IMG/VR virus record: IMGVR_UViG_3300033182_000980
Location: 186,001 to 250,000 of that record
Source of the DNA: a virus
DNA length: 64,000 bases
Strand: one strand, 5' to 3'
Part shown: positions 132 to 24,441 of the stretch, in pieces
How positions within the stretch are numbered: position 1 is the first letter of the stretch
How the letters are laid out: each line of letters starts with the position of its first letter
The notes under the pieces: generated by a model
What the model was told of the DNA's origin: nothing
The model's input: only the letters and a program-made list of their open reading frames with translations
Databases searched by the model: none
Position numbers and translations under genes: made by a program

Positions 132-159
132 CTTATCTCATCTCCTATTGAGTTTATGA

Positions 160-837: not shown

Positions 838-849
838 GAGTTAATCTCC

Positions 850-1569: not shown

Positions 1570-1582
1570 GGTTTATCTCCTA

Positions 1583-2317: not shown

Positions 2318-2364
2318 AGTCTTTCTCCTTAATAGTTAGGGTTTCACCTATATACAGATGAAAT

Positions 2365-2380
2365 ATAAATAGACTATTAA
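2365..2380 (-). promoter_or_regulatory. Candidate phage promoter element, TAGT type
   Basis: On the minus strand reads TTAATAGTCTATTTAT, a match to the recurrent 16-mer GTAA-TAGT-TTAT-TTAT found before many genes here. It ends 48 nt before the ATG of the 1583-2317 gene and is followed by an 8-bp (one G-U) inverted repeat. Confidence 0.55.
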
Positions 2381-2396
2381 AGAGTCGGACTGCTAT

Positions 2397-5202: not shown

Positions 5203-5916
5203 TTAGAAGCGAATGTAGAGTCCTGTGCCATCTTCAAAGCGATCTTTGAGATCCTCTGCATAGACATCGTTGAACTCTTTAACAACCTTTACGCTACGAC
5301 CATGAGTACGAATGAACTCCATGTCATAAAGGTCAAGACCATTAAGGGTGATACGCACTCTGTTCACAGCACCCCTGTGCTTAGGCTTTGGGAACACGAG
5401 TGTAACACCATTAGGCTCATTGATGAGTTGCTTGAGTCCAATCATCATCTGTAGCTTACGACCACCGCCGAGCTGATTAACGATGGTAGCCGCAATCGAA
5501 TTGGCTTGTCTCTCAAGACGAGCAACCTTGACACCTCTAGCTGTGGCAGAGATACCTTTGGAAGCTAACCAGTTCATCACTGCCGTGAAATCACCTCGAT
5601 AATCATTAACTTCCATTAACTCTGCGAAGCCCATGTTTTGATTTGCTTTGGAAATCAAAGCCTTTTTAATCCCTTCTTTTCTGACCTCAACAGATTGGTC
5701 TGGCAATCTACTCTTAGACCACTCTTTCCAACTGACTGGCTTAATTGAACCATCAAATCCTACAAAAGCAAAAAATAAAGTTTCACCTCTTGAAAGGTTT
5801 ACTTTTCTCCCACTTCTTGATGCAATCGTCTTGTATTCAAATGCAGACGCTTGTCTCTCAAGACGAGCAATTCTCATCTCAAGATTTCTAATAATCTCAC
5901 TAGCTGATCTTCTCAT
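5203..5916 (-). CDS. Leader-bearing protein with an internal second leader core
   Basis: 237 residues. The first 24 (M-R-R-S-A-S-E-I-I-R-N-L-E-M-R-I-A-R-L-E and on) form a basic amphipathic helix with a heptad-like I/L pattern, shared with 9282-9608, 10166-10648, 10704-11372 and others. Around residues 130-138 the core VARLERQA occurs again, encoded by a 22-bp exact repeat of the first copy, 345 bp (115 codons) away. The protein therefore looks like two leader-plus-body units fused in frame. The second body (NQLGGGRKLQMMIGLKQL..., VNRVRITLNGLDLYDMEF) is beta-rich. Function unknown. Preceded by a promoter element and an inverted repeat. Confidence 0.7.
   Translation of the reverse strand: MRRSASEIIRNLEMRIARLERQASAFEYKTIASRSGRKVNLSRGETLFFAFVGFDGSIKPVSWKEWSKSRLPDQSVEVRKEGIKKALISKANQNMGFAELMEVNDYRGDFTAVMNWLASKGISATARGVKVARLERQANSIAATIVNQLGGGRKLQMMIGLKQLINEPNGVTLVFPKPKHRGAVNRVRITLNGLDLYDMEFIRTHGRSVKVVKEFNDVYAEDLKDRFEDGTGLYIRF
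5504..5870. repeat. 22-bp exact direct repeat within one gene
   Basis: The 22-mer beginning GCTTGTCTCTCAAGACGAGC (plus strand) is at 5504-5525 and at 5849-5870. Both copies encode the leader core (A-R-L-E-R-Q-A) in the same frame, 345 bp apart. Exact DNA identity suggests recent duplication or recombination. Confidence 0.7.
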
Positions 5917-5982: not shown

Positions 5983-6981
5983 TCAATCCTCGTCATATTC
6001 CTGCTGTGCGAGGATCAACATACCCTTAGAGACAGCATGGAATGGGTCAGAGGCATGGCGTACCTCTGAAATCTCAATGGGGAAACGCTTACGCTTAGTC
6101 TCAAAGACCTCCCTAAAGAAATCCATGAAGCCACCAGCTAGGCTCGTACCCCCACCCACTACGATTGGAATGGGCTTGTTAAGGGTGAGGTGTCCACCCT
6201 TCATTACAAACTGTTGTGCGATGTTATCCAGAGCGTGTTCAATAAGAGCCTTATAATAGAACGAGATCGCTTCTTCTTCACGATTGGTAGGTGCATTAAG
6301 GTCAATGCCCTTCTCTTTAATAGCACACATCTTAGAGGCTGTTGCACCCACAGATCGAGCCGCACCTTGGTCGATCCAATCGCCACCACGAGCAACCGAG
6401 AATGAAAGACCTTCAATGGTGTTGATAGCAAGGGCGATGTTAGTCATACCCGAACCAAAGGAGATGCCGATACCACTGAAGCCTTCCTTAGCAGTCTCTG
6501 CGAATACGATAGCCATAGCTTCGTTAGCTGGATGAGCTGTATAACCACACTCTTGAACGATGCGTGTAAAGACACCCTTGTGATAGACGACATCCATGTT
6601 AGCGTCCACAGGGGCGGCAGGGATTGAGAAGTAGCAGTGTTCACCCTCATGGCTAGGCTCACCGAGTACATCTTTAACCATGTGTCCGAGAACGGTGAGT
6701 GAGTCAATCTCATCAGCAGAAATCAAACCCGCTTTGAGGGGTCTACGACCTTCTCGTCCGAACATATTGGCAACTTCCATAGCCTCATCACCAAGTACGA
6801 GAAGATTGTCATCCGCTTCAATGTATGAAACAGATCCGAGTTTGAGCATCTTCTTTGCAGACTGTGGGAGATCAATAAAGAGATCACGCATACGCCTAAG
6901 AGTGACCTCGTTCTTCTTGCCACTCATTCGGGCAGATACGAGGTTCATAGTTCCAATGTCAAGTCCTACGCCTTTACTCAT
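5983..6981 (-). CDS. Actin-like ATPase (ParM/MreB-fold)
   Basis: 332 residues. The three nucleotide-binding signatures of the actin/Hsp70 fold are present: phosphate-1 GLDIGTMNLVSAR (6-18), phosphate-2 GIGISFGSGMTNIAL (170-184) and adenosine motif IVVGGGTSLAGGFMDFF (273-289). Length matches ParM/Alp-type filament proteins. Such proteins polymerise in an ATP-dependent way to move plasmids, and in some phages to position DNA or the replication site. No signal or membrane segment. It is the last gene of a three-gene operon (8194 to 5983) with 4-nt ATGA overlaps, so its partner proteins are probably 6978-7625 and 7622-8194. Polymerisation itself is inferred. Confidence 0.8.
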   Translation of the reverse strand: MSKGVGLDIGTMNLVSARMSGKKNEVTLRRMRDLFIDLPQSAKKMLKLGSVSYIEADDNLLVLGDEAMEVANMFGREGRRPLKAGLISADEIDSLTVLGHMVKDVLGEPSHEGEHCYFSIPAAPVDANMDVVYHKGVFTRIVQECGYTAHPANEAMAIVFAETAKEGFSGIGISFGSGMTNIALAINTIEGLSFSVARGGDWIDQGAARSVGATASKMCAIKEKGIDLNAPTNREEEAISFYYKALIEHALDNIAQQFVMKGGHLTLNKPIPIVVGGGTSLAGGFMDFFREVFETKRKRFPIEISEVRHASDPFHAVSKGMLILAQQEYDED

Positions 6982-9270: not shown

Positions 9271-9296
9271 GAAGCTCGTTTTCACATACGAGCTTC
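9271..9296. terminator. Hairpin between convergent genes, possible terminator
   Basis: Perfect 9-bp arms GAAGCTCGT (9271-9279) and ACGAGCTTC (9288-9296), loop 8 nt, just after the plus-strand stop at 9260 and overlapping the end of the minus-strand gene 9282-9608. Neither side has a run of T, so a classical intrinsic terminator is doubtful. Confidence 0.35.
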
Positions 9297-9608
9297 AAAT
9301 TCCCTACTGCTTTTTCTATATACTTTACCCACCGACATAGTGTCCATTGATTCGTCACTCCATGAATCAAGAGATACTTTAACGGCCTTATTTCCTTTTA
9401 AGGGTACTTCTAAGACGATCTTCCCCCCTCTTGACATTTCAAAAGGTTCAAGGTCAGTATTTACATTTTCGTTAGTTAAAATCGACACTTGATTCTTAAA
9501 AACCCTCATTAGATATGAGTCTTTGAGGTCAACTTTGCTCGCTTGACGCTCTAATCGAGCGATACGAGCTTCAAGATTTCTGATTATTTCTGACGCTGAT
9601 CTTCTCAT
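9282..9608 (-). CDS. Leader-bearing small protein
   Basis: 108 residues. The leader (M-R-R-S-A-S-E-I-I-R-N-L-E-A-R-I-A-R-L-E and on, first 24) differs by one residue from that of 5203-5916, although the codons differ at many third positions, so conservation is at protein level. The remaining 84 residues are beta-rich (SYLMRVFKNQVSILTNENVN, GKIVLEVPLKGNKAVKVSLDSWSDE) with no recognisable family. AAGGAA before the ATG at 9608 and a promoter element at 9664-9679. Being short, it shows best that the leader is a separate module joined to a small domain. Confidence 0.7.
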   Translation of the reverse strand: MRRSASEIIRNLEARIARLERQASKVDLKDSYLMRVFKNQVSILTNENVNTDLEPFEMSRGGKIVLEVPLKGNKAVKVSLDSWSDESMDTMSVGKVYRKSSREFEARM

Positions 9609-10165: not shown

Positions 10166-10648
10166 TTACCCAATCCACCTTGTCAGATCGCCCCAGTCTA
10201 ACCAGACTCTCTTTTTCTTAGGGTCAATTTTGATGCCGAGAGCTGAACCTATACTAGTACGATCTCGCTCATCAAAGTTGAATGGGATGCTTATGGTGTT
10301 TGGTCTACCCCCTCCACCAAACGATGGGAAACCTCTTAGTGCCATAAAGTGTTGAGCACCAGCTTGCTTAAACCATTCATCTGCACCAGTGTGAGTTTGT
10401 ACATACCCATAAACAGTCACTGTTCTGCCATTTTTTGGGTTTTCAAAAGTGACATCCACATTATTAAGGCTTTTTACTTCAACATCGACAACTTCAAATA
10501 GACCTGCATCGGTCTTGTAAAGGAGTCTCTCTAACTCTTGGAGGGTTAGTCTATTGTCCTTAAAGATGTCAAAGATACCTGCTTGCTTTTCAAGCTGTGT
10601 AACTCTTGACTCAAGGTCATGGATGATTTCTGATGCAGTTCTTTTCAT
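10166..10648 (-). CDS. Leader-bearing hypothetical protein
   Basis: 160 residues. Leader M-K-R-T-A-S-E-I-I-H-D-L-E-S-R-V-T-Q-L-E and on (first 24), then a body with beta-rich parts (LFEVVDVEVKSLNNVDVTFENP, RTVTVYGYVQTHTGADEW) and a C-terminal RTSIGSALGIKIDPKKKRVWLDW. The body is unlike those of the other leader proteins and I recognise no family. Convergent with the MazG-like gene (3-nt gap). The upstream region holds the inverted repeat CCATAGGT/ACCTATGG that pairs over the ribosome site, and the promoter element at 10692-10707. Confidence 0.7.
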   Translation of the reverse strand: MKRTASEIIHDLESRVTQLEKQAGIFDIFKDNRLTLQELERLLYKTDAGLFEVVDVEVKSLNNVDVTFENPKNGRTVTVYGYVQTHTGADEWFKQAGAQHFMALRGFPSFGGGGRPNTISIPFNFDERDRTSIGSALGIKIDPKKKRVWLDWGDLTRWIG

Positions 10649-10658
10649 GGTAGGTTCT

Positions 10659-10707
10659 CCATAGGTTTGAGTTAATACCTATGGGGAGACAATAAATAGG
10701 TTATTAA
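10659..10707 (-). promoter_or_regulatory. Promoter element plus ribosome-site hairpin
   Basis: Element 10692-10707 (minus strand TTAATAACCTATTTAT; the TAGT core is here TAAC). Downstream of it, arms CCATAGGT (10659-10666) and ACCTATGG (10677-10684), 8 bp perfect, extended by TCT/AGA after a 2-nt bulge. The start-proximal transcript arm runs into GGAGAA, the ribosome site of the gene at 10648. Confidence 0.5.
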
Positions 10708-11372
10708 AATCTGACCCTATACTTTTTGAGGGTCGGGGTCATACCTTTTTCAACGCTCTTAGCAATGGATACAACCTCTTCAGCTAATCTTACATTCTCT
10801 TCTGTCGAGTCGAGTCTCTTTACAAGACTGAGGCTAAGTTCGCTCCCTCCCTTAGACCAGTCATTTAGACGGTCTTGGAAATGATTTTTTAGTTCCACAT
10901 AAAGAGGATCGGGATCATACCCCGTAGCCCCTTGTGTGAATAACTCTATATTCATGGTTAGAGGAGAGTCTTCTTCTTCTCGCAAGTGTAGGAAAAACTG
11001 AGTGTCTTGCGATTGGAAGTGAAGCAGAGTTATCTCATCTTCATCAAGAATGTCATAGTATTGGTAGGGAACATCGCCAAGTTCAATCAACTCTATGACA
11101 GATTTCTCAACTTTGATGGGTGCAACTAAAGAGAATGTCCCTTGAGCTGACATCATCTTGTTATTTTGTTTGAGCTTGAAGTCAGTTATTTGAAACTGAA
11201 CTGTCCCATCAAACATATCTTGAAGCTCACCCTCTAACTCAGAGGACATTTCATCTTGAGTGAGCTTGGAAGGAACTTTGAAGTCATCAATGATGTAGTT
11301 TCTGCTCGCTTGTTTTTCAAGACGAGCGAGCCTACGCTCAAGACCTCGAATGATTTCTGATGCTTTTTTCAT
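10704..11372 (-). CDS. Leader-bearing hypothetical protein
   Basis: 222 residues. Leader M-K-K-A-S-E-I-I-R-G-L-E-R-R-L-A-R-L-E-K and on. The body (FKVPSKLTQDEMSSELEGELQ, TVQFQITDFKLKQNNKMMSA, FFLHLREEEDSPLTMNIEL) is acidic, with an N-terminal helix and several predicted beta strands; no known domain. The C-terminal VVSIAKSVEKGMTPTLKKYRV is basic. The ATG at 11372 directly touches the stem of a perfect 13-bp inverted repeat that contains the whole GGAGAG ribosome site, the strongest example of the masking arrangement seen in this window. Confidence 0.7.
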   Translation of the reverse strand: MKKASEIIRGLERRLARLEKQASRNYIIDDFKVPSKLTQDEMSSELEGELQDMFDGTVQFQITDFKLKQNNKMMSAQGTFSLVAPIKVEKSVIELIELGDVPYQYYDILDEDEITLLHFQSQDTQFFLHLREEEDSPLTMNIELFTQGATGYDPDPLYVELKNHFQDRLNDWSKGGSELSLSLVKRLDSTEENVRLAEEVVSIAKSVEKGMTPTLKKYRVRF

Positions 11373-11857: not shown

Positions 11858-12790
11858 TTATAGGGGCAAGTACCGAGTTCTAGCGTATCGGGCAGACTTG
11901 CTTCCAAAACCAAACCATGACTTGAGTTTACTCACTCCAGTGTTCAAAGCGTCCATCACACCTCGACTTATACTTCTAAATCCACCTAAAAGTTTGTCTT
12001 TAAGCTCTGTAATCTTAACCCCTGTTCGCTGAATAAAGGGTAAGAAATACTTAAAGAAAAAGTTGGCAACTTTAGAGGTAGCCCACCCTAAAACTCTTAG
12101 GGCTAGATAAGCACAAAGCATGATACCCATGACTTTAACTGATCCAAGAGTAATAGCTCCCCACAAAGTCTTGGCAACAGCTCCTCCAGAAGCAAAGACA
12201 GCGATAGCGGCTGCACAAGTATAAACCACGAAAAACATTAGAATCGACCCTAGAGCGTTAAACTCATCTCCAGTATAGTATCGTTTCCCCCCCAAATTGA
12301 GGTGAGCACCCTCAATCGGAGTTCCCTTTTGCTGGAATAATTGTTCTTCGATTTGTTTATGACCCTTATAGAGCCAAGCATAAAAACCTATGGGGTCGTC
12401 CGAGTTATGTCGCTTAATACATTCATCAATGTAGGCATACTTAGCCTTGATTGAGTTTCTGCGATCAATCTCCTCTTTGATCTTTTGGATCTGAGGATTC
12501 TTATCATTGATGATCTTGTCCATGTTCTTATAGGCATTCATAATATCTCTTGGTGAGTTAATGCCAGCCTTCTTCATAGCAATCACAAAACTGCTTGGGA
12601 CATCCTCAAGTTCATTATCAAGCCCTTCTGCAAGCCCAACGAAAGCTGTTTCGATAGTAGCTTTCTCGACCTTATCTGCTTGGTTTGAAGTCTTGATGAC
12701 TCGACCAAGATTGTTGATGTAGGCTTGTTTTTCAAGGCTTGCGACTCGGATCTCAAGATCACGAATATATTGGTGTGCTGTCTTTCTCAT
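11858..12790 (-). CDS. Leader-bearing membrane protein
   Basis: 310 residues from the ATG at 12790 (GGAG eight bases upstream). The leader reads M-R-K-T-A-H-Q-Y-I-R-D-L-E-I-R-V-A-S-L-E and on. A long helical region follows (IETAFVGLAEGLDNELEDVPSSFVIAMKKAGI...), then at least two hydrophobic segments around residues 187-245 (LGSILMFFVVYTCAAAIAVFA and KVMGIMLCAYLALRVLGWA), a basic amphipathic stretch and a C-terminal GVMDALNTGVSKLKSWFGFG. Carrying the shared leader on an integral membrane protein is odd if the leader is a capsid-packaging tag, and points rather to a tag for complex assembly or a protein delivered to the host membrane. Family unknown. Confidence 0.65.
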   Translation of the reverse strand: MRKTAHQYIRDLEIRVASLEKQAYINNLGRVIKTSNQADKVEKATIETAFVGLAEGLDNELEDVPSSFVIAMKKAGINSPRDIMNAYKNMDKIINDKNPQIQKIKEEIDRRNSIKAKYAYIDECIKRHNSDDPIGFYAWLYKGHKQIEEQLFQQKGTPIEGAHLNLGGKRYYTGDEFNALGSILMFFVVYTCAAAIAVFASGGAVAKTLWGAITLGSVKVMGIMLCAYLALRVLGWATSKVANFFFKYFLPFIQRTGVKITELKDKLLGGFRSISRGVMDALNTGVSKLKSWFGFGSKSARYARTRYLPL

Positions 12791-12837
12791 GTTCTTTTCT
12801 CCATAGGTAGAATTAAGGTAAGGACACATATCTCAGA

Positions 12838-14204: not shown

Positions 14205-14665
14205 TCTAGCTCTTCTGGTATATCGAACCTTACTGTCCTTCTATACTTATCCCGATAACCAATCTTAGCTTGGACTTGGTGCTTACAGGGGATCATCTTT
14301 CCTGTTTTGATCTTGTGTATGATTAGCTCGTAATCCATGATCTCACCAGGTAATGCCATGATGATATATGGGTTAGCTATATCTGTCGGGAGGTCTTTAG
14401 GATCGACTACAAGTACAACGGCTGTTGGTGTAGAAATCCAACCTTTGATCTGGATCGTTTGACTAGTAGCGAGTATTGAGGTGTATGGTTTTAAGTCGAT
14501 CACAGATCCGTTCGACCCGAATGATTTAAGGACAGCAACAGACCCTTTTTTATTCCAGTAAGAGGGGATCGTGGGAGTGTTAGGTTCTCTTTTCCACCAC
14601 AAGAACAGCTCTTCTGGTTCTCTGATGCAAGCTACTAGGCTAGATACTTTTGTGATTAAATCCAT
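14201..14665 (-). CDS. Hypothetical protein
   Basis: 154 residues, ATG at 14665 sharing one base with the stop of the upstream peptidase-like gene, so the two are translationally coupled. Contains an N-terminal helix with WWKREPN and a beta-rich body (SILATSQTIQIKGWISTPTAVVLVVDPKD, YIIMALPGEIMDYELIIHKI, RTVRFDIPEELE). A single Cys (PCKHQ) and no catalytic motif. Because of the coupling it may form a complex with the HExxH protein 14665-16512, for example as an inhibitor or adaptor, but the sequence itself does not show this. Confidence 0.6.
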   Translation of the reverse strand: MDLITKVSSLVACIREPEELFLWWKREPNTPTIPSYWNKKGSVAVLKSFGSNGSVIDLKPYTSILATSQTIQIKGWISTPTAVVLVVDPKDLPTDIANPYIIMALPGEIMDYELIIHKIKTGKMIPCKHQVQAKIGYRDKYRRTVRFDIPEELE

Positions 14666-16512
14666 TATCTGATCCTCTTAGGGTGTTTGTACTTGGTCCT
14701 CCAAGACGGCTGTATCTGCTCCATTGCTTCAATGCCAACTTTACTCATTATGTCGGGTTCAAAGACACTACCCAAAGAGATGTTAGTTTTGGCTAACACT
14801 TTGTGTTTAGGGGGGTGTGCATAACCATTTGATTTATCCACAACTAGGTAGGTGTGAGTAGAGTTCATCTCCTCATTTTGATAGAGGAAGATGATGACAT
14901 TCTTGAGAACCTTTATTGTCATCCCTAAAGCAGAAGCAATAGCTCTCGATGCTTCAATAATCGCATCTCCATTGCCTTCTGGAGTAGTCGGGATTGTTGG
15001 TTCGGGAGTCTGATCCACGACTTCTGTTTGAGGAGGCTCTTGGGTAGGCTCTGTAATAACATTCATTGTCCTCCAACGAGGTTTTAGGCTACTCATACGC
15101 TCAAACCCTACACAGACATCTAAGTTATCATTAGAGATGTTTGAGAGGTTCACATTAAGGTTTGGCTTAGACTTCGTTTTAGGAGCGAACAGATTACCTG
15201 TGGCATAGTCTATGAACATATAAGCGTGTGTCGAACCTACAGCTTGATTAGTGTAGACGAACAATCCGTACTTACGACCTTTTTTAAATAGGAGTCCAAG
15301 TCTACTTGCCAATGACTCGGAGATCCTAATCATCTCTTGTTTACTTGGGAGAGTTTCTTCAACTTGCGTGGCTCCGGCTTCTTCAGTTTCACTTGGCACG
15401 AAAATATCTGTAAAGTTTGAGCCGTCGGGTTGATACTCTACGCCGTCAACAATGATACTATTAAACGCTTCTAAGGACTTAGGGTGTAGCTTCCCTACTG
15501 CTTTGTACGATAGAGCTTCACAGAAATGCTCTTCAACATCAGTCATAGCATATTTAGTAGGAAAGATACCAGTTTGTGCCTTGATGTATTCTTTAATGTA
15601 TTTCTCTCTATAAACACCGATCTCACTACCGTCGGGCAATACAAGATAGACTCCATGAGATGTTATCCTAGAAATCTTTACAGGGACACCATCACTAGCT
15701 TTGACCCCTATAGATGTTTTTGAACGCTTCTTTTTGGCATATAGATTGATGTCTTTACCGATCCATTCAGATAGACGAATACGCTGTGCATAATGGCATT
15801 TAAGATCATATCTTCTCCACAGTCTCTTTTTATCTTCGGAGAGGATTTTCTGATAGTATCTATGCCCTATCTCATGGATAAAAGTCTTAATGAACTCTGC
15901 TTTATCCCTATCCATGTACTTCATGGTGATCTCGTCTTTTACCGAGTTGTACCATGCGTACCAGCTTGACCTTCCTAGCTTCTCGACTAGTACGACATCA
16001 CCGTAGAGTGCTTGAGGAAAGTTGGGAGCTAGTGAGTTCGTGCATCGAGACAGGGCTTGAGTGCAAGCCTCTTTCATCTCTTCGACCTTATCTTCACCGA
16101 GATTGATTGGGTTCTTTAGAGTAAAAGGACCGACATCGACTTCGTTTTCCCCTTCTTCTCTTAAAGGGTATCGAAGCAGAGCAAGCATATCATCAATATG
16201 TTTCTTCCTAGCTCTAAGCCAATCTTGAGGGCTGTATCTTCTTGAACGAGGGAGCTTAAGTTTATTCTTAATCGCCCGAACTCTCTTCGACTTATTTTCG
16301 GGGAAATTGATCTTATGGAATAAGAAATCGGCTAAGTGTACTGCAAAGACTAATCCTTTACTTTGCACGAATAATGAAGGGTTGAACCTTGCATCTTCAA
16401 GGACATCAATGGCTTCTAACACAGGGGTGTTGTAGTTAGTGTTTCTTATGAGTCCTTGCCATGTACCTATTTCACATCTGCTTAAGTGACTGTAGCTTGC
16501 GTACCTTCTCAT
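14665..16512 (-). CDS. Zinc metallopeptidase-like protein (HEIGH) with duplicated C-terminal domain
   Basis: 615 residues from the ATG at 16512 (AGGTGG eight bases upstream; GTG codons at 16521/16524 are alternatives). E-F-I-K-T-F-I-H-E-I-G-H-R-Y-Y (HExxH at 213-217) is a typical zincin zinc site, preceded by a strand-forming DEITMKYM. No signal peptide. The C-terminal part holds two related ~90-residue units: one with THAYMFIDYATGNLFAPK ending in PRWRT, the other with THTYLVVDKSNGYAHPPK ending in PSWRT, separated by a Pro/Thr/Glu-rich linker. The start MRRYASYS is basic like the other MRR starts. Probably a protease brought to its target by the duplicated domain; substrate unknown. Confidence 0.7.
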   Translation of the reverse strand: MRRYASYSHLSRCEIGTWQGLIRNTNYNTPVLEAIDVLEDARFNPSLFVQSKGLVFAVHLADFLFHKINFPENKSKRVRAIKNKLKLPRSRRYSPQDWLRARKKHIDDMLALLRYPLREEGENEVDVGPFTLKNPINLGEDKVEEMKEACTQALSRCTNSLAPNFPQALYGDVVLVEKLGRSSWYAWYNSVKDEITMKYMDRDKAEFIKTFIHEIGHRYYQKILSEDKKRLWRRYDLKCHYAQRIRLSEWIGKDINLYAKKKRSKTSIGVKASDGVPVKISRITSHGVYLVLPDGSEIGVYREKYIKEYIKAQTGIFPTKYAMTDVEEHFCEALSYKAVGKLHPKSLEAFNSIIVDGVEYQPDGSNFTDIFVPSETEEAGATQVEETLPSKQEMIRISESLASRLGLLFKKGRKYGLFVYTNQAVGSTHAYMFIDYATGNLFAPKTKSKPNLNVNLSNISNDNLDVCVGFERMSSLKPRWRTMNVITEPTQEPPQTEVVDQTPEPTIPTTPEGNGDAIIEASRAIASALGMTIKVLKNVIIFLYQNEEMNSTHTYLVVDKSNGYAHPPKHKVLAKTNISLGSVFEPDIMSKVGIEAMEQIQPSWRTKYKHPKRIR

Positions 16513-16517
16513 CTTAT

Positions 16518-17249
16518 TCACCACCTAATTTTGAACTTAACTTTGATCTGCATATCTTCATTGATGACCTGTTCGGGAGGTCGGGTGTCATAAGCATAGT
16601 TAAGCTCATTGACTAGGGAGAATACTTTGTTGAGAGTGAACTCAAGAGATCCTGTGGTCAAGATACGATAGTCATCTGGGTCTGTGAACAAAGGTTGAAA
16701 GTAAGTGATCAATTGACCCTTAACCTTGTTTTCCCATTCCTTGCCTATACGAATATAGGAAGAGGCTCTAGCATTGATATTTCCTGTCTCAAGAGCTGAG
16801 ATACGCTCATAGTCCGACATCCCACCTATACCTATAGCTAAGTGGTCTTTGAACATGGTGAACCTCAACCCACATCCAGTGAGCTGTCTCAAGGTCAGTA
16901 GTTGGAACTCGGCTGTCTGTACTTGAGTGAATACCTCTGTACCGACATGATTCCACCACATAGCTGTCCATCTAAGGTGAGCATAGGACTGATCTTGGAA
17001 AGGCTCACCTTCGCTTTCGCCATAGGACATTGACCCAATGATGAGTGAGTGGTGTATGTCTTTGATATAGTCAGCTCTTAAACCAAGCTGATACTGAAAG
17101 ACATTTACATTCCCTCTCTGTACAGATAAACCGATTTCATTAGATCCATGTAGACCTTGCTTATCTCCACCACGATCTGACTCGATGTTCACTACTTGCC
17201 CCCAAGCGAGGTATGGGAGCATTACAATAAAGATAAGCAAGGCTCTCAT
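16518..17249 (-). CDS. DUF481-like outer-membrane beta-barrel protein
   Basis: 243 residues. MRALLIFIVMLPYLAWGQV is a clear Sec signal peptide with cleavage about residue 17-18. The mature part is made of alternating amphipathic strands: EIGLSVQRGNVNVFQYQLGLRADY, HLRWTAMWWNHVGTEVFTQVQ, LTLRQLTGCGLRFTMFKDHLAIGIGGM, ending with KIRW, an aromatic-terminated last strand. This matches DUF481 (YdiY-type) outer-membrane proteins, including the L-x-x-R-x-L-x-G-x-G-L-R-F block. Rarely seen in phages; a possible role is receptor masking or envelope modification during infection. It lies in a gene row with a peptidase (downstream) and a Cys-rich protein (upstream), 1-nt overlap. Confidence 0.75.
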   Translation of the reverse strand: MRALLIFIVMLPYLAWGQVVNIESDRGGDKQGLHGSNEIGLSVQRGNVNVFQYQLGLRADYIKDIHHSLIIGSMSYGESEGEPFQDQSYAHLRWTAMWWNHVGTEVFTQVQTAEFQLLTLRQLTGCGLRFTMFKDHLAIGIGGMSDYERISALETGNINARASSYIRIGKEWENKVKGQLITYFQPLFTDPDDYRILTTGSLEFTLNKVFSLVNELNYAYDTRPPEQVINEDMQIKVKFKIRW

Positions 17250-17722
17250 TACAGGATCTCTACAGGATAGTTTTCAAGTAGGAGTCTTGTAAGAGGACAA
17301 CGCTTCTTCTTTGCGTGAGTCTCTAAATAAGGCACATGATTTCTGCTCTTTGAGTGGAGGCTATGAGCTACTTCACCCGAATAGAGAATGAGGTCTGTGA
17401 TTGCCTTGTGTGAAGCTCTTGCACAGCTCGGCTTAAACCCTAGAGGTCCAGCTACCATACGCTTTGGCTTCTGATTGAGTAAGCAAGCACCACCAAGAGC
17501 TTTACTCGCATTACAGTTCGATCCTTGGCATCGGGTACTGAAATAAGTACCCGCTTCTGGATGCTTGCTCTCAACAAAGCGAGCGAGGGCATTAACCTTT
17601 TTCTCTAGCTTACGAAGAGCGACTTCAACATCATTCTGGACAGCTTTGGTGAAACCATAGTTCCCACTTGCCGCAGTCTTATTCATGTAGGCGTTAGCAA
17701 CTCTTTTAATGCTGTTATTCAT
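17249..17722 (-). CDS. Cys-containing hypothetical protein with N-terminal presequence-like helix
   Basis: 157 residues from the ATG at 17722 (GGAG seven bases before it, directly after the stop of 17724-19304). The N-terminus (M-N-N-S-I-K-R-V-A-N-A-Y-M-N-K-T-A-A-S) is a short basic amphipathic helix ending in small residues, like a propeptide. The middle has EVALRKLEKKVNALARFVE, a leader-like amphipathic helix, and a set of Cys (C-x4-C, then two more Cys and KKRC) that could bind metal or form disulfides. No family recognised. Followed with 1-nt overlap by the outer-membrane protein gene. Confidence 0.6.
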   Translation of the reverse strand: MNNSIKRVANAYMNKTAASGNYGFTKAVQNDVEVALRKLEKKVNALARFVESKHPEAGTYFSTRCQGSNCNASKALGGACLLNQKPKRMVAGPLGFKPSCARASHKAITDLILYSGEVAHSLHSKSRNHVPYLETHAKKKRCPLTRLLLENYPVEIL

Positions 17723-17723
17723 C

Positions 17724-19304
17724 TCACCACTCCAAATCGTCAATGATGTCATCGTGATGAGCTAGACGGCTTAGTGCGTCTAAGCCACCACTAGAAGGCT
17801 TCTTTGCAGGTCCAAGACTATCAAGTGCGGATAATCCACCACCAGATCCCCCTGTGTTCTTTTGAACACGAGCTGGATCAATTCCTTTGGAAGTCATTGC
17901 ACCTTCGTACTTAGCCCACTCTTTCCCAAAGTTTTTTTTCTGGGCTTCATAGGAATCTTTTACTTCTTTTGCACTATTGTGCTTGTGGCTTTTGACCCTA
18001 GACTCTTTGTCGAAGTCAGCCGTGATGCCCATATCATCAATGATGTCATCTGCAAACTTAAAGGTATAACCTTCCTCTTCGCCATGTGGGTGATCATCAC
18101 GATAACCACGATAACGAGCTACATCGTTCATAGCGGAGTGTGCGTGAGAAATCTTATCTTCAACCCAGTCGTCAAGGTCGTCCATGCCGATGTCATCAAC
18201 GATGAAATCCGCCATGTCGCTGATCTCTCGTAGGTTCTGTCGGCTCATGTATGATCCGGACTCTTCATGGTCTTTAGCCATACGGCTAGAACCTTTAGGG
18301 ACAGAGCCAATAAGGTCTTCAATGTTTTTTAAGGCATATTCTAAAGTCGGGAGAACTTCATTTTCCATGACTCTATAAACATAACGCTCATTGCCTTCGT
18401 CAGCCAATCCACGATCAATCATAGAGGTGATCTCATGGTTTGCTTCTTTAATTGCCTCTTGGAAACTTTCAAAAGCTCCAGACACCTCTTCATGGTATGG
18501 AGCAAACAAAGGATGTCCATCTACATCTACGAAAAGTTCACCCCAACTGTTTTGGCTTTTAATCAGAGCTGATTCTACAGCATTCATATCTTCAACAGCA
18601 TCGGAGAGATCATCAAGAGTTATTTTACTTAATAATCTGTCAATATGAGATACAGAATTCACTAGTCGTTTCTTTAAAGATGAACTGATCTCACGATCTG
18701 ATAGATCACCTGCTATACGACCAAGACCAAGGTCATCAATGATCTCGTAATGTGCAGTTTTACCCGCATCTTCTACGATCTCTTCTTTGTCCTCTTTGAT
18801 GTCCTCAAGTTTCTCTTCAAGCTCTTTTTGCTCGGAGTCTAACTCTTGGAAGTCCTCGGAACTCATCGCCTTAGCTCTGTTCTTAACGACATCCTTGTTG
18901 ATCTCGGTCTGCTCATCAAAGGTTTCAGCGGCATCGGGGTTGTCTTTCTTCCACTGCTCAAACTCTTTCTTACCTTTAGGTCCAGAATGAAAACGAGACT
19001 CTTTCCAGAAATCAGACATACGATCAAGACCGATGTCATCTACAATCTCGAAGCCCTCAAGCTCCTCGGCTTCAAAGTCATCCGAGAGAAAGTCAGCTTC
19101 AAAGTCATCTGCGATCACTTCATCTTTGACATTACCTGGACCACCTCTTAATGGCTCGATCCCCATATTTACTTGGACGACATTCTCACCCAAGAAATCA
19201 GCGGCGTTTCTCTCACCATAGTCGGGCTGTAGTCGAAGGGGTTGCTGTGGGTATCGAATCTCCATGTGCTTCTGTGCGATTTTTTTAGCTAGTCTTTTAA
19301 GCAT
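17724..19304 (-). CDS. Acidic multi-motif protein (five I-(I/V)-D-D-(I/L/M) repeats)
   Basis: 526 residues, very acidic, with a basic N-terminal helix (MLKRLAKKIAQKHM). A short motif (E/F/D)-I-(V/I)-D-D-(I/L/M)-G recurs near residues 87, 188, 368 and 421, and again at the extreme C-terminus as D-I-I-D-D-L-E-W. Between the copies lie coiled-coil (FQELDSEQKELEEKLEDIKEDKEEIVE), helical and KESR-x-x-S-type segments; the C-terminus also repeats GGL-(S/D)-A-L. This is the layout of a scaffold or of a substrate with repeated docking or processing sites. No enzyme motif. AAAGGAG before the ATG, promoter element upstream. Confidence 0.65.
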   Translation of the reverse strand: MLKRLAKKIAQKHMEIRYPQQPLRLQPDYGERNAADFLGENVVQVNMGIEPLRGGPGNVKDEVIADDFEADFLSDDFEAEELEGFEIVDDIGLDRMSDFWKESRFHSGPKGKKEFEQWKKDNPDAAETFDEQTEINKDVVKNRAKAMSSEDFQELDSEQKELEEKLEDIKEDKEEIVEDAGKTAHYEIIDDLGLGRIAGDLSDREISSSLKKRLVNSVSHIDRLLSKITLDDLSDAVEDMNAVESALIKSQNSWGELFVDVDGHPLFAPYHEEVSGAFESFQEAIKEANHEITSMIDRGLADEGNERYVYRVMENEVLPTLEYALKNIEDLIGSVPKGSSRMAKDHEESGSYMSRQNLREISDMADFIVDDIGMDDLDDWVEDKISHAHSAMNDVARYRGYRDDHPHGEEEGYTFKFADDIIDDMGITADFDKESRVKSHKHNSAKEVKDSYEAQKKNFGKEWAKYEGAMTSKGIDPARVQKNTGGSGGGLSALDSLGPAKKPSSGGLDALSRLAHHDDIIDDLEW

Positions 19305-19342
19305 TTCAGATCTCCTTTAGATTGTTCATTTAATCTCTAGCA

Positions 19343-19358
19343 ATAGATAAACTATTAA
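19343..19358 (-). promoter_or_regulatory. Candidate phage promoter element, TAGT type
   Basis: Minus strand reads TTAATAGTTTATCTAT, containing the stop of the upstream gene (19355-21262), 39 nt before the ATG at 19304. Followed by a short AGATT/AATCT repeat. Confidence 0.55.
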
Positions 19359-21262
19359 ATGTTAGGTAGTCCTACGAGGTACTTAACTACATCGCCTTTA
19401 CCTTCTAGGTTTCGGGTGTAGCACTTCTTGTCATCATCCCATTCGAGAGGTTTGTTGAGGACTGCTCTTACTTGAGTCTCATCTTGGATGTGATTGACTC
19501 CGAGTCGCTTCTTTAAGAGTCGGGCGAACCTTGCATCAACCTCTGCATACCAACCTCTCTTTAAGAGGAGTTCTGCACCTTTCATCAACATAGCGTTCCT
19601 ACCCTCGCTTGTGCCATCAGACCCAATGAGTCCGATCTTCTTCCCGAAGCGTGTAGTGCTATAACTAACGAAAGCGTCTATCTCATCATCTCCAGCAACA
19701 TCAACGACCCAGAAGATGTCGTAGTTTCTCATAAGCTCGGACTTGGAGCTTATGTGCTTTCCTACTTTGGAGTAGGATAGATCATAAATGACCCACAGTT
19801 GTTCCTGTTGATCTTGGGAGAATTGCTTAGGGGGTGCTTCAACCCACTTTTTACGGTCAAGGTGAACAAGAGCGATACGCTGTGCCATCCTTTGATGTGC
19901 AAATGATCTGAACACGAGCTTGTATGCTTCGCCTACAGCTTTAGAGTATTTGTCTTTAGCTTTACGCTTAAGTGAGAGGAAAAAACCAATGGGTCTGACA
20001 TAGTTTAAGAAGTCTGCCCTTCTTCTTTCTTGTCTGCCGATGTCTTGACCCACAAGAGCCTTAAACAATAAGTTCTTATCTTGGACAGTAAGTTTTCTGT
20101 GCTCTCCGTGGTAATCGAACTTTGACATAATCTCACGAACAGCATCCCTAAGATCAGTATAAAACTCAACATCATCTAAATGATGCTTTTCAAGATCAAG
20201 TCTCCTACCACTATCCTCTTGATTTTGCTTGAACTGAGGCGTTCTGATCTTCTTTGAGGGCAGTCCTGCTAGATTGCTTTGGTTTCTTAGTCTTGCATAA
20301 TCACTGAAGAAATCTTTTAGCTTTAATGAGATGTAAGACAGGATTGTTTGACCAGCGTGGGTCATCTCGTGAACCACAACCCTGTGGATATGCTTAACTA
20401 TATACCGTGCCTCTGGAATTATACCAGATCCATCTACAGCTTTTTCTGCATCACTAATAGGCATGAAGAAAGTGTTAGCTCCTGCTTGCCAATGTGGGTT
20501 TTCGTTTGAAACTTGTATCCTCACATTGATATGAGCAAGGCTCTCTATTTCGTCCTCAAGATTGTTGGCTCTCTCTATAACCCTTTCAAGCTGTTCGGTT
20601 AAGAAATCACTTGCGTCATCGGGTACGGTCTCAAGCAGACTCGTCATGCTTGACTTCATTTGATCCAACTCTTCTAACTTTGTTTGCTTGACCCTCTCTC
20701 TATGCTCTTCAAGAGACTGCTGATCGACATACCATTCATCAAGATAGATAGGGAACTGCACATATCTTACTTCGCCTTTTTTCATGGGCTTCAGCTTAAC
20801 TGTGATGAGCTTCTTAAATCCTTTAATCTTCTCCTTAACATTAGGGATCATTCTCTCGCCATAAGCAAGACGACCCTCCATAGATTCGAGGTTCTTCTCA
20901 ATCTGTTCCTCGATTAGTGCTTTAACAGCTTCCCTTCGCTCCGAGGACTTTACTCCAGAGAAGGCTTTCATCTTAAAATCTGAAAAGTAGCCATACCCAA
21001 AAAAGCCTCTCGACACCTCTCCGAACTCTTTGTATTTACTGTAGATGTCTCTTGTGCCTTTAGAGTCAGCGGCATCTCTTAGCTCATCAATCGCAGTTAA
21101 AAGAGGCTCATATCTTGGCTCTTCCGTAACTCTGAACTTTTTAAGCTCCCTAACCTTTCGGTTGAGGGCTTTGACATAGTTAGTCGCTACTTGTGAGATG
21201 ATATGCTCATACACATCTTGAGTGAGCATAGGGGGTGGCTTCATTAGTCCTGCATATTTCAT
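19355..21262 (-). CDS. Zinc metallopeptidase-like protein (HEMTH) with shared C-terminal domain
   Basis: 635 residues. HRVVVHEMTHAGQTILSY carries an HExxH zinc site at 298-302. Upstream are long helical segments (residues 20-240) with charged coiled-coil character. The last ~145 residues (LWVIYDLSYSKVGKHISSKSEL..., FGKKIGLIGSDGTSEG, LLLKRGWYAEVDARF, GKGDVVKYLVGLP) are homologous to the C-terminus of the next gene upstream (21274-22512), which carries a cysteine-peptidase-like N-terminus instead. So one accessory domain is joined to two unrelated protease folds. AGGAG before the ATG. Role unknown; could mature virion proteins or attack host proteins. Confidence 0.7.
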   Translation of the reverse strand: MKYAGLMKPPPMLTQDVYEHIISQVATNYVKALNRKVRELKKFRVTEEPRYEPLLTAIDELRDAADSKGTRDIYSKYKEFGEVSRGFFGYGYFSDFKMKAFSGVKSSERREAVKALIEEQIEKNLESMEGRLAYGERMIPNVKEKIKGFKKLITVKLKPMKKGEVRYVQFPIYLDEWYVDQQSLEEHRERVKQTKLEELDQMKSSMTSLLETVPDDASDFLTEQLERVIERANNLEDEIESLAHINVRIQVSNENPHWQAGANTFFMPISDAEKAVDGSGIIPEARYIVKHIHRVVVHEMTHAGQTILSYISLKLKDFFSDYARLRNQSNLAGLPSKKIRTPQFKQNQEDSGRRLDLEKHHLDDVEFYTDLRDAVREIMSKFDYHGEHRKLTVQDKNLLFKALVGQDIGRQERRRADFLNYVRPIGFFLSLKRKAKDKYSKAVGEAYKLVFRSFAHQRMAQRIALVHLDRKKWVEAPPKQFSQDQQEQLWVIYDLSYSKVGKHISSKSELMRNYDIFWVVDVAGDDEIDAFVSYSTTRFGKKIGLIGSDGTSEGRNAMLMKGAELLLKRGWYAEVDARFARLLKKRLGVNHIQDETQVRAVLNKPLEWDDDKKCYTRNLEGKGDVVKYLVGLPNI

Positions 21263-21273
21263 CTTATTTCTCC

Positions 21274-22512
21274 TTATAGAACGGGGCTACCGAATAATGC
21301 TTTGGTGTGTCTGCCGATAGATCCCAATGACCTACTGTAGTAGCCATCACCTTCAAGGATGATGTCTCCTTTACCACCCATAATAGCCATGATCGTATCT
21401 GGATTCTTTATGTTGTCTAACCCTCCCCTTCTTAGGATTTCTTCAACCTTGTCAGACGCTTCTGTGTAGTATCCTCTCTGTTTGAGGAGCTTGAGCATCT
21501 TAACTATGACTGCCTTTTTGGACTTCCTTGTTCCATCATGCCCCATAGCCGCGATCTTCTTACCGAATGGTGTGTCTTTCATGGCAATGAAGATGTCAAT
21601 ATCTGGATCATCATCGTTGTCAATGACCTCGAAGATCGGGTACTTTTTGATTAGCTCCTCTTTAGACCCTATGTGCTTGCCGATAGCTCCATAAGCAATG
21701 TCATATAGAGTCCAAAGATCTCCCTCTTGCTCGGAGTCGAATCGGTTATTCTTTGTCTCTAACCATTTATCCTTCTCCAAAACGACTCTAGCAAGTCTCT
21801 CTGCCATGCGTTCTCTGCGTAAGTCTTTCTTATGCTTCTCTTTACGAGATCGACCCTTAGCGACATCTTTATCCCTATTCTTGTGCTTGCCTTTACCAGA
21901 ACTGCCGACACCTGTACCATCGAACATTCCTTGTGCGTTAGGATCACGATACTTAGGGATCGAGGGTTCTTGGTTTTTCTTCTTTTTGCTTGCCATGATC
22001 TGGCGACCATTCTCACAGACCTCACGCTCAATCATAAGAGCGGGTCTGCGTACAAGATAGTTCGGCCATTTCTCGAACCACTTAGAGTAGAAATCATCTT
22101 CGGAGACTTCACGAGTGGTCTTGTCGGGGTTAGGCATATTGGGGTCAGCTACATGAACAACATAGCTTCCCTTTTCACCAGTCACATCAAAGATTAAGCT
22201 CGCATGACTCCAATCCCTACCTTCTGGATTCCAAGCGATGAGGACAGGCTTACCTTGATCAGTCCATGATTTTACTTGGGTGAGTGTAGCTGGTGTAGTG
22301 AGTGTAGCTCTGCAACCAAAGTATTGAGCACAGGCTAATACCTCTTCCCATCTCGCACCTTGCATGGGTTTCGCACCAATAACTTGATTGACTTGATCTT
22401 CGTTGCATTTAACCCCTACAGCATTGAGTGCCATACAGGTGGAGGTTGCAACGCAACTAAACTGTGACCGCTGTCGTATTGGGTTCACATCAGCTTTTGC
22501 TAATCTTCTCAT
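21274..22512 (-). CDS. C39-like cysteine peptidase fused to shared C-terminal domain
   Basis: 412 residues. The N-terminus has the papain-like C39 layout: Q17-F-S-C20-V-A-T-S-T-C (oxyanion Gln and catalytic Cys), W-S-H103-A-S-L-I-F-D-V (catalytic His) and V-A-D123-P-N (third residue). A Lys/Arg-rich linker (residues about 175-240) leads to a ~145-residue C-terminal domain with LWTLYDIAYGAIGKHIGSKEEL, FGKKIAAMGHDGTRKS and LLKQRGYYTE, homologous to the end of 19355-21262. No transporter domain, so it is not a bacteriocin exporter. Starts MRRLAKAD. A 15-bp hairpin and a promoter element lie directly upstream. Confidence 0.72.
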   Translation of the reverse strand: MRRLAKADVNPIRQRSQFSCVATSTCMALNAVGVKCNEDQVNQVIGAKPMQGARWEEVLACAQYFGCRATLTTPATLTQVKSWTDQGKPVLIAWNPEGRDWSHASLIFDVTGEKGSYVVHVADPNMPNPDKTTREVSEDDFYSKWFEKWPNYLVRRPALMIEREVCENGRQIMASKKKKNQEPSIPKYRDPNAQGMFDGTGVGSSGKGKHKNRDKDVAKGRSRKEKHKKDLRRERMAERLARVVLEKDKWLETKNNRFDSEQEGDLWTLYDIAYGAIGKHIGSKEELIKKYPIFEVIDNDDDPDIDIFIAMKDTPFGKKIAAMGHDGTRKSKKAVIVKMLKLLKQRGYYTEASDKVEEILRRGGLDNIKNPDTIMAIMGGKGDIILEGDGYYSRSLGSIGRHTKALFGSPVL

Positions 22513-22513
22513 A

Positions 22514-22566
22514 ATAGGTAGCCCTTTCTATTGTTAGGAAAGAGCCACCTATAAAGAGATTACAAA
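22514..22566 (-). promoter_or_regulatory. Promoter element plus 15-bp hairpin
   Basis: Element 22551-22566 (minus strand TTTGTAATCTCTTTAT) overlaps the stop of the upstream gene. Arms ATAGGTAGCCCTTTC (22514-22528) and GAAAGAGCCACCTAT (22538-22552) pair over 15 bp in RNA; the two non-Watson-Crick positions are G-U in the minus-strand transcript. The start-proximal arm contains the AAAGGG ribosome site. Confidence 0.6.
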
Positions 22567-22991
22567 TCTATCACCACACAAAGGCCGGAGCTAGGGTGCT
22601 TTCTTTTAAGAGACTCCCATACCCTCATAGCCATGTCGCTAGTTGACCCCGACACGCTACATTTTTCGGGTATGATGACAAAGGGTTTCCTCACCCTCTT
22701 TGACCACCCCTCTATGAGCTTTTGGTAAATCTCTGACCCGACACCTTTGCCTTGGTACTCTTTACTTAGGCTGACTACATTGACTTCTAATATGCGTATG
22801 TCCTCACCGTCCATGACTTGAGGATACTCATAACTAATATCTATGAGATCGTCCGAGCATTGATAGGTATGTACGACCTCCATCATAGAGATGGAGTCGC
22901 CATAAGCCCTAGCAAGCCCTATGACTTCACCTTGGTCTTTAACCTCAACAAAGACGGAGGTTGATGTGGTCTTGGTGGAGAAATCGAGCAT
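22560..22991 (-). CDS. GNAT-family N-acetyltransferase
   Basis: 143 residues. Motif A of GNAT enzymes is visible as ILEVNVVSLSKEYQGKGVGSEIYQKLIEGW (67-96), with the acetyl-CoA pyrophosphate loop Q-G-K-G-V-G at 80-85. The N-terminal strand-helix part (VFVEVKDQGEVIGLARAYG) also fits. The acceptor is unknown; phage GNATs may modify proteins or small molecules such as aminoglycosides or nucleobases. The ATG at 22991 overlaps the stop of the upstream gene (TGATG), so the two are coupled. Confidence 0.75.
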   Translation of the reverse strand: MLDFSTKTTSTSVFVEVKDQGEVIGLARAYGDSISMMEVVHTYQCSDDLIDISYEYPQVMDGEDIRILEVNVVSLSKEYQGKGVGSEIYQKLIEGWSKRVRKPFVIIPEKCSVSGSTSDMAMRVWESLKRKHPSSGLCVVIDL

Positions 22992-23746
22992 CAGCTTCTC
23001 TTAAACTTCGACTTGTTGAGATGAATCTCAATGTGACCTTTTTCTCCTATATTAATCGTATAGTCCTTATCGTAGCCAGATTTGAGTTTTTTAAATGCTG
23101 GGTACTTTGTGGTTAGGAGTTTTTTAAGGTCATTGGTTAGAGGACCAGCCCATTCGTCCCACCACCCCTCTTCATCCCAACCCTCTGGATCACAATCGGG
23201 ATCGTCCTCATCACAGTCATAGTACGCACCAACATAGTGGTCGAGTCTTTGTCTGTTCATAGGCTCTATCTCTAGGAACCAGGTGTTTCCATCGTCACTT
23301 AGACCCATACCTTTCATACGACCACCATTGGGGGTACTTGACCTGCTCAAGAAATAGTAGACCTCTTGAGCTGTCGGTAGTTGTTCTTCAACTGTAGGTC
23401 GAGATCTCGGTGCTGATCTAGTAGGTGTTCGTTGTCGAACAGGTCTTGGAGGCTCGTTAACCACACGAGGAGAGGGTTGTCTACCTGTTGGGTTAGACCT
23501 AAACGAGTCAGCCAAGTCAGATGCGTTGTTTCTGTGCATTACTTTTCTGATGTTTTTAAGATCTCGCTCACTAAGATCACCCCCGTCTTTGAGGGTCTGA
23601 AGGTATCCCCCAAGCTCAACGATCATTCTTGTGTTGTTTCGATTTTGGGACAGGAAGCCCCTAAGAGCTTCATAAGCCTCTGACTTAGTGGCGGCCTGTC
23701 TTTCGAGTCTGGCAACCCTCATTTCGAGGTTTCTTAAGATACTCAT
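22991..23746 (-). CDS. Leader-bearing protein with Pro/Arg linker
   Basis: 251 residues. Shortened leader M-S-I-L-R-N-L-E-M-R-V-A-R-L-E-R-Q-A, missing the S-A-S-E-I part. A helical segment follows (EAYEALRGFLSQNRNNTRMIVELGGYLQTL), then a Pro/Arg-rich linker (PRPVRQRTPTRSAPRSRP) and a C-terminal domain with an acidic patch (CDEDDPDCDPEGWDEEGWWDEW) and a beta-rich end (DYTINIGEKGHIEIHLN). The Asp/Glu/Trp-rich part may bind metal. ATG at 23746 shares one base with the stop of the upstream gene. Function unknown. Confidence 0.65.
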   Translation of the reverse strand: MSILRNLEMRVARLERQAATKSEAYEALRGFLSQNRNNTRMIVELGGYLQTLKDGGDLSERDLKNIRKVMHRNNASDLADSFRSNPTGRQPSPRVVNEPPRPVRQRTPTRSAPRSRPTVEEQLPTAQEVYYFLSRSSTPNGGRMKGMGLSDDGNTWFLEIEPMNRQRLDHYVGAYYDCDEDDPDCDPEGWDEEGWWDEWAGPLTNDLKKLLTTKYPAFKKLKSGYDKDYTINIGEKGHIEIHLNKSKFKRS

Positions 23747-24441
23747 TATTGTTGCTCCAAGTCAGCAGAGTCTGTGTGGAGGATCGCTTTGAAAATAGAG
23801 TCCTCGTCATAATAGCCATCTCTGTCCTGTTTGATAGATCTACTAGGAACAGTAAGGTGGAATACAGTTCGCTCTGATTTCTCTCGGTCGTCAGCTCGGT
23901 CAATATACTCAAGCTCAACATTTAGTTTCACATAAGTACCATAGAACTCGACTTGATCTTCAACATCCACAGCAACATATTGCTTGCGATCATCTCCGTA
24001 AGACCCAAGCCATTCAAAGACTTGACTGTTTAAATAATCTCGTCCTCTACGACCTAGCTCAACGAGGGCTTGAGGGGTTTCTCTCCTAGCTGATTTCTCA
24101 AGTCGAGCAATGCGACCCTCTAGCTCATAGATGACATCAGATGCCCTACGAGTCCTAATGCCGCTGAGTCGATCTTCGAGGTCTTGCAGTTGTAGGGCAT
24201 CAAGATTGAGGCTTTGTTCTTGAGCTTCAAGTGCTTCAAGACGCTCTTGCTCTCGGATCAGAGGCTCAAAGTGCTGAATGTCAGCAATGAACTCTCTGAC
24301 CCTTCTGATTTCTTCTTCAAGGTCTTCGGTGTCAAGACTCTTGATATATCCGACATTAACTTTACCAGCATCGCCATCAAGTTGTTTGTATAGCTTGATG
24401 AGATTGTAGAGGTCGATTCTTTTACCCGCGTTTCTTCGCAT
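23746..24441 (-). CDS. Protein with internal leader motif
   Basis: 231 residues starting MRRNAGKRIDLYNLIKLYK. Residues about 40-95 form a charged coiled coil (DLEEEIRRVREFIADIQHFEPLIREQERLEALEAQEQ). Around residue 97 the leader reappears inside the chain: R-R-A-S-D-V-I-Y-E-L-E-G-R-I-A-R-L-E-K-S. A beta-rich domain follows (KQYVAVDVEDQVEFYGTYVKLNVELEY, RTVFHLTVPSRSI). This looks like a fusion of a coiled-coil protein to a complete leader protein, parallel to 5203-5916. AAGGAG before the ATG at 24441. If the leader is a cleavage tag, a product starting near residue 120 would be expected. Confidence 0.65.
   Translation of the reverse strand: MRRNAGKRIDLYNLIKLYKQLDGDAGKVNVGYIKSLDTEDLEEEIRRVREFIADIQHFEPLIREQERLEALEAQEQSLNLDALQLQDLEDRLSGIRTRRASDVIYELEGRIARLEKSARRETPQALVELGRRGRDYLNSQVFEWLGSYGDDRKQYVAVDVEDQVEFYGTYVKLNVELEYIDRADDREKSERTVFHLTVPSRSIKQDRDGYYDEDSIFKAILHTDSADLEQQ

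Follow-up and report, generated by a model that had tools for sequence, protein, structure and literature searches.

A 64,000-nucleotide stretch of a huge uncultured bacteriophage (positions 186001-250000 of the 375,691-bp IMG/VR virus record IMGVR_UViG_3300033182_000980; here, the window) encodes three predicted peptidases side by side within one minus-strand operon: an HEIGH zincin-like protein, an HEMTH zincin-like protein, and a C39-like cysteine peptidase. We give an even chance to the reading that these peptidases serve as effectors, packaged in the head and delivered to the host together with the phage DNA. They would be a split-gene counterpart of the polyvalent proteins known from phages and conjugative elements, for which injection along with DNA has been proposed (Iyer et al. 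2017, PMC5512222). The effectors would be built from exchangeable parts, namely, a peptidase (C39-like or zincin), often an acyltransferase-like domain of the GNAT fold, and short amphipathic tags. In this scheme, whose packaging, ejection, catalysis, and host targets we infer, the proteins would be made late, directed into the prohead by their tags (R[IV]AxxYL or a leader reading ASEIIRxLExR[IV]ARLERQA) as T4 capsid-targeting sequences do, and ejected into the host with the DNA. Their targets there would be host or defence proteins, cleaved by the peptidases and acylated by the GNAT-fold domain early in infection.

Three predicted peptidases

The C39-like protein (412 residues; 21274-22512, minus strand, as are all peptidase features below) consists of a conserved head (residues 1-176; 21985-22512) and a variable tail, which here ends in a GNAT-fold domain. 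The protein scored 27.6 bits against the Pfam family Peptidase_C39_2 (PF13529), for which the curated cut-off is 24, and the family was matched (E ≤ 0.01) in 26/26 homologues. Residues Q14/Q17, C20, H103, and D123, including the oxyanion Gln, are invariant across these homologues; the predicted catalytic Cys20 is encoded at 22453-22455 and its predicted partners, H103 and D123, at 22204-22206 and 22144-22146. By family, the assignment as a predicted peptidase is firm. The head is encoded at 37 IMG/VR loci, with 77-93% identity among near relatives, and one relative is found in the 485-kb uncultured phage LR745208. It ends in a conserved ERE[IV]..[DN]GRQ[IV]MAS segment, after which the tails differ in almost every relative, the shortest being 13 residues long and the longest exceeding 800.

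The HEMTH protein (635 residues; 19355-21262) also ends in a GNAT-fold domain. Both its HEMTH motif (residues 298-302; 20357-20371) and a DDxEFxTxLxD motif with the candidate third zinc ligand E366 (residues 363-373; 20144-20176) are invariant in five homologues, among them the one at locus L027, which is 22% identical; H298, E299, H302, Q305, D363, D364, and E366 are retained down to that level. The model of residues 298-366 has a predicted local distance difference test score (pLDDT) below 50.

The HEIGH protein (615 residues from the ATG at 16512; 14665-16512) has an alternative GTG start at 16524. Its HEIGH motif (residues 213-217; 15862-15876) lies in a predicted helix (residues 204-223; pLDDT about 88), and the candidate third zinc ligand lies in EEHFCE (residues 327-332; 15517-15534), on a predicted helix spanning residues 326-338. 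Residues H213, E214, G216, and H217 and the EEHFCE segment are invariant in six homologues, and HExGH together with E327, E328, and E332 is kept down to 26% identity. The motif helices were modelled at a pLDDT of about 80-89. Two similar C-terminal repeats of ∼90 residues each (residues about 391-480 and 514-600; 14713-15342), recognized by eye, have a like strand order in the model. A Foldseek search of the PDB with this model returned no significant match (best E 0.064); the weak matches include several metallopeptidases (lethal-factor-type and others), which are not significant and were not used for kinship, and the Pfam model MPTase-PolyVal stayed below its cut-off. A profile of the family found relatives in LR745208 and in Virus Rctr197k (about 5e-38; profile E 4e-38 for the Rctr197k protein). 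The Rctr197k relative is a 2175-residue protein (L090:470-6997) that adjoins the terminase and holds an HEIGH-type zincin, a second HExxHxxQ motif, and a Pfam GNAT domain. The predicted zincin identity of the HEMTH and HEIGH proteins is well supported at the level of motif conservation.

The initial annotation of the window had located these three open reading frames at the coordinates given above and had read an HEIGH zincin, an HEMTH zincin, and a C39-like cysteine peptidase in their products. The frames are in those places, on the minus strand, and HEIGH, HEMTH, and a Cys/His/Asp set are all present. They are not chance occurrences: PF13529 is matched in all 26 homologues, and the zincin motifs are invariant down to 22-26% identity. 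Of the protease cluster proposed there, the C39-like member is supported, and the zincins are likely by motif, with the reservations already given for the HEMTH model and the HEIGH structure search.

The nearest solved sequence to the C39-like protein is PeiR (1e-5), an endoisopeptidase that cuts pseudomurein. Together with a conserved neighboring gene for an outer-membrane-like DUF481 protein, this similarity would suit envelope or peptidoglycan peptidases that act in entry or lysis along with the DUF481 protein. Such a role is very improbable: Pfam detected no wall-binding domain on the window peptidases, their N-termini are not signal-like, and three unrelated peptidase types with GNAT folds do not resemble a lysis cassette.

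The shared GNAT-fold domain

The initial annotation had noticed that the C39-like and HEMTH proteins end in the same domain, which is indeed shared (37.6% identity over 181 residues; BLAST E 1.6e-26) but is about 178 residues long rather than ∼145. It occupies residues 234-412 of the C39-like protein (21277-21813) and residues 457-635 of the HEMTH protein (19358-19894) and opens with a tag-like RMAxRxAxV(H/V)L. This segment reads RMAERLARVVL directly before the domain in the C39-like protein (21778-21810), where relatives have a module joint, and RMAQRIALVHL at the domain start in the HEMTH protein (19859-19891), the place that matches the joint in the chimeric genes of L005 and L014.

The HEMTH copy was modelled with a pLDDT of mostly 86-95, and the fold of the C39 copy is taken from it by homology. 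Across the models, alignments A7 and A5 served as folding inputs, and alignments A2, A3, and A6, which mix full-length sequences and fragments, were excluded (L010 and L027 were misplaced in them). A Foldseek search of the PDB gave GNAT acetyltransferases as its 50 best matches, at E values from 4.4e-4, probabilities of 0.99-1.00, and target-normalised template modelling scores of up to 0.65. In BFVD, two proteins match best (both 1.6e-8), an uncharacterised phage protein of 183 residues and one of 406 residues with the annotation "esterase"; viral GNATs follow. As modelled, the shared domain adopts the GNAT (acetyltransferase) fold. It resembles RimI, CBU0801, and AAC(6′) in fold but belongs to no detectable sequence family, with GxKxxxxG(H/S)DG(T) replacing the Q/RxxGxG/A of those proteins; it has no entry in Pfam, PHROG, or NCBIfam, and a single-sequence scan of genome contigs found no relative. 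The near-invariant residues D529, G540, K542, G547, D549, and G550 map to predicted strands 3-4 and to the loop between strand 4 and helix 3, the acyl-CoA site in GNATs. This placement suggests that the domain works as an enzyme and is not a passive tag; it may have acyltransferase activity.

Structure prediction and a wider search, both proposed with the initial annotation, thus yielded a GNAT fold and copies in other large phages, where, outside this lineage, the domain usually stands alone as a protein of 174-235 residues. The same annotation had assigned the domain a targeting or regulatory role, which does not hold as worded: given the GNAT fold and the usual stand-alone occurrence, an enzyme module is more likely, and targeting is more probably the task of the short adjacent tags. 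A function as a mere targeting signal was set aside as first choice, the domain being folded, GNAT-type, and mostly stand-alone.

Among isolates, Tenacibaculum phage pT24 carries the domain (gene BPT24_057), and the next gene is annotated as an esterase. A UPF0227-type esterase gene adjoins the stand-alone GNAT-fold gene at L042, L055-L058, L060, and LR745208, an assignment that was tested for L056 and LR745208 and made by sequence likeness at the other loci. Loci L084 and L088 also have this arrangement, which thus occurs in several unrelated large phages. Several stand-alone GNAT-fold genes adjoin tail genes, and at L059 (positions 3-3248) a 1081-residue open reading frame combines the GNAT-fold domain with an intein/Hint-type segment.

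Module exchange and recurring short tags

Comparison of relatives at the sequence level indicates that the shared domain is a swappable module. At L005 and L014 a C39 head is fused to the HEMTH-type domain copy, and the HEMTH catalytic part is lacking. Up to base 524, the L005 DNA matches the C39 gene of L007 with 92.6% identity, and from base 511 it matches the HEMTH gene of L007 with 89.5% identity; the L014 DNA switches from the C39 gene to the HEMTH gene at bases 1005-1015. Both joints lie within codons for the tag M-A-S-[RK]-[IL]-A, which stands before the shared domain. A further fusion, at L035, links the C39 head with the end of a motif-repeat protein. In a tree, the C39 copy of the domain from the window falls outside the HEMTH and chimera copies, as expected if the chimeras are recent. 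The genome encodes another protein of the HEMTH type (G000:C1:72288-74183, or L080:12288-14183), laid out as a zincin, an RVAHRYL tag, and a GNAT domain that is homologous to the window gene at 22560-22991 (BLASTP E 7e-15) and not to the shared domain. Because this paralogue carries a different GNAT, the order of peptidase, tag, and GNAT fold has arisen more than once.

Short tags also recur on otherwise unrelated genes. A 24-residue leader, M[RK][RK][ST]ASE[IV]IRxLExR[IV]ARLERQA, is found on 31 genes of this genome whose sequences otherwise differ, with examples in the window at 5203-5916, 9282-9608, 10166-10648, 10704-11372, 11858-12829, and 22991-23746; the leader is amphipathic, ends in RLERQA, and had no match in the known phage record collection. 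The HEMTH homologue at L010 carries the leader motif at its C-terminus, and the HEMTH relatives at L027 and L032 carry a tag at the N-terminus. A tag of the R[IV]AxxYL type lies in the last 28 residues of 9/27 distinct C39 proteins (shuffles gave a mean of 0.03 and a maximum of 2, a ratio to be read as indicative). Stand-alone GNAT-fold proteins bear the tags of the phage in which they occur. At L056 an identical run of 17 residues (MSFNLLEYLKNNPLLEE) opens two adjacent, different proteins, one of which is a stand-alone GNAT-fold protein. The GNAT-fold copy of LR745208 starts with LRSKLVRLAHENPALRPHLLPLLKEA, and its tag (LAHENP) matches 11 places in that record. In LR745206 the copy starts with MKHLKAFEEYE and stands among genes starting with MKYLKKYKxFE, and 11 of 61 genes carry the motif, compared with an indicative 1.2 in shuffles.

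For comparison, the T4 internal proteins IPII and IPIII share an N-terminal MKTYQEFIAEA, and it is short propeptides of this kind, known as capsid-targeting sequences, that bring the ejection proteins of T4 into the head (PMC5694885, PMC7411985). The tags that recur on the peptidase relatives and on unrelated genes resemble these sequences. It is possible, and we propose it tentatively, that tags of 10-24 residues act as both a delivery code and a recombination joint, such that any tagged module (C39 peptidase, zincin, either kind of GNAT-fold domain, or motif-repeat protein) would be loaded into the head and ejected, giving a large, fast-shuffling injected arsenal whose leader-tagged genes number no fewer than 31 in one genome.

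Amphipathic leader peptides are the substrates of classical C39 peptidases, and an amphipathic leader stands on 31 genes here. The peptidases might then serve virion maturation, cutting leaders or module junctions of packaged proteins in the prohead and possibly freeing their own tails at GRQ[IV]MAS, a segment that is conserved where the C39 tail begins. Autoproteolysis by zincins has been proposed for polyvalent proteins (PMC5512222), and no other maturation protease was identified with Pfam models. We nevertheless consider maturation rather unlikely. The leaders end in RLERQA and not in Gly-Gly, and deep relatives have C39 heads at loci where this leader was not seen. The peptidases are also variable, swapped, or missing (the catalytic part of the HEMTH protein is lacking at L005 and L014), which sets them apart from a core maturation enzyme. 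Cleavage of the leader by the C39-like peptidase at a double glycine was rejected as a candidate, the leader having none. The initial annotation had suggested that virion or injected proteins might be processed by such a system. The virion or injected part of that idea fits the tags and the polyvalent link; processing of phage proteins by the peptidases would also fit a packaged peptidase and is a possible, less supported variant.

Gene neighborhood and known systems

The operon belongs to a minus-strand gene run extending from ∼27.6 kb down to 13.6 kb, in which genes mostly overlap or lie less than ∼50 bp apart. On the same strand, at a distance of 15-42 kb, are a giant-open-reading-frame block (37-63 kb), which probably consists of tail genes, and a baseplate-type gene (63403-63957). 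A nucleotide search of phage records gave no matches. The C39 gene is adjoined by the GNAT acetyltransferase gene at 22560-22991 (Pfam Acetyltransf_1, above the cut-off), followed by the leader-tagged protein at 22991-23746 (MSILRNLEMRVARLERQA) and a protein that has the leader motif internally (23746-24441). Between the zincin genes lie an acidic motif-repeat protein (17724-19304), the C-terminal part of which is fused to the C39 head at L035; a conserved Cys-containing protein of 167 residues with an N-terminal tag-like IKRVANAYM (17249-17752); and the DUF481 protein (16518-17249; Pfam 2.4e-11), which has a hydrophobic, signal-like N-terminus. These genes are also on the minus strand. The position of the DUF481 gene, which places an outer-membrane-type protein inside a phage operon, is conserved in the relatives L005-L008 and L014; in L006-L008 and L014 it sits between the genes for the 167-residue protein and the HEIGH protein. 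Elsewhere in the window (5983-6981), a 332-residue protein has an N-terminus like those of actin/ParM ATPases (MSKGVGLDIGTMNLVSARM) and had no matches in PHROG.

Several observations weigh against head packaging. The DUF481 protein, with its signal-like N-terminus, probably acts from the infected cell; thus, membership in this operon does not imply packaging. None of the three window peptidases has the full leader at its start, their tags being internal or weak. The motif patterns were made by hand after examples had been seen, and the shuffles ignore relatedness; the identical 17-residue run and the 31-gene leader are independent of these pattern statistics. The canonical GNAT Q/RxxGxG/A is absent from the shared-domain alignment, in which the loop reads G(S/H)DGT. 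Virion proteomics data for relatives were not found. A head-maturation protease was not identified by Pfam, for which only the S78 model had working controls: the HK97-type protease (S78) model was silent while its controls gave signal, and the models for the T4-type head protease (S77), the major capsid protein, and the portal were silent, as were their controls.

The signal-bearing DUF481 gene in the same run, the stand-alone GNAT-fold genes that adjoin tail genes, and the missing virion proteomics would also accommodate unpackaged enzymes that are made and act within the cell during infection, with the tags directing them to another phage structure, such as the replication compartment or the tail. 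We judge this unlikely, because the stand-alone tags resemble the capsid-targeting sequences of T4 and because of the association with a polyvalent-like protein adjoining a terminase.

That association also informs the favored reading of packaged effectors. The Rctr197k protein, beside the terminase, has a polyvalent make-up, and the window operon looks like a polyvalent toolkit split over genes, in which every part bears a packaging-type tag or is joined by way of one. As in polyvalent proteins, zincin-like peptidases and GNATs are combined, and a link to packaging genes exists in Rctr197k, the only genome in which terminase linkage was seen. Polyvalent proteins are defined by at least two disparate domains per polypeptide, which here are C39 plus GNAT fold and zincin plus GNAT fold, and more strongly so in Rctr197k. 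The window differs in splitting the activities over several operon genes, in having a C39-like peptidase and an undescribed GNAT-fold family besides, and in exchanging parts at short tags.

As with the T4 internal proteins and Alt, short N-terminal tags are common to otherwise unrelated proteins; here, however, the tag sequence is another one, tags are also C-terminal or internal, far more genes are involved, and neither a cleavage site nor a protease has been identified. In the giant phages SPN3US and phiKZ, many proteins are packaged and ejected, and propeptides have been proposed to target them (PMC5694885, PMC7411985). Those propeptides are long and are cut at AXE by an identified protease, and no sequence relationship to them was found here. 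The C39-like protein shares its sequence family and the Cys/His/Asp set with other Peptidase_C39_2 members, including PeiR, but has no ABC transporter, is fused to variable tails, and forms a separate phage clade.

Polyvalent proteins, ejected proteins, and capsid-targeting tags are already known in kind. What is new comprises a GNAT-fold family not described before and its fusion with unrelated peptidases, the exchange at a tag, and the number of tagged genes; the papers searched, a set that lacks most subscription papers, contain no description of these features and no report of the tag set or the domain.

Little is known of what huge phages inject along with their DNA. If packaged proteins are indeed marked by the tags, the injected set would be readable from sequence alone, and the peptidase-acyltransferase hybrids would be specific, testable candidates for early host takeover. 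The shared domain itself represents an undescribed family, predicted to have the GNAT fold, that occurs across several huge-phage lineages.

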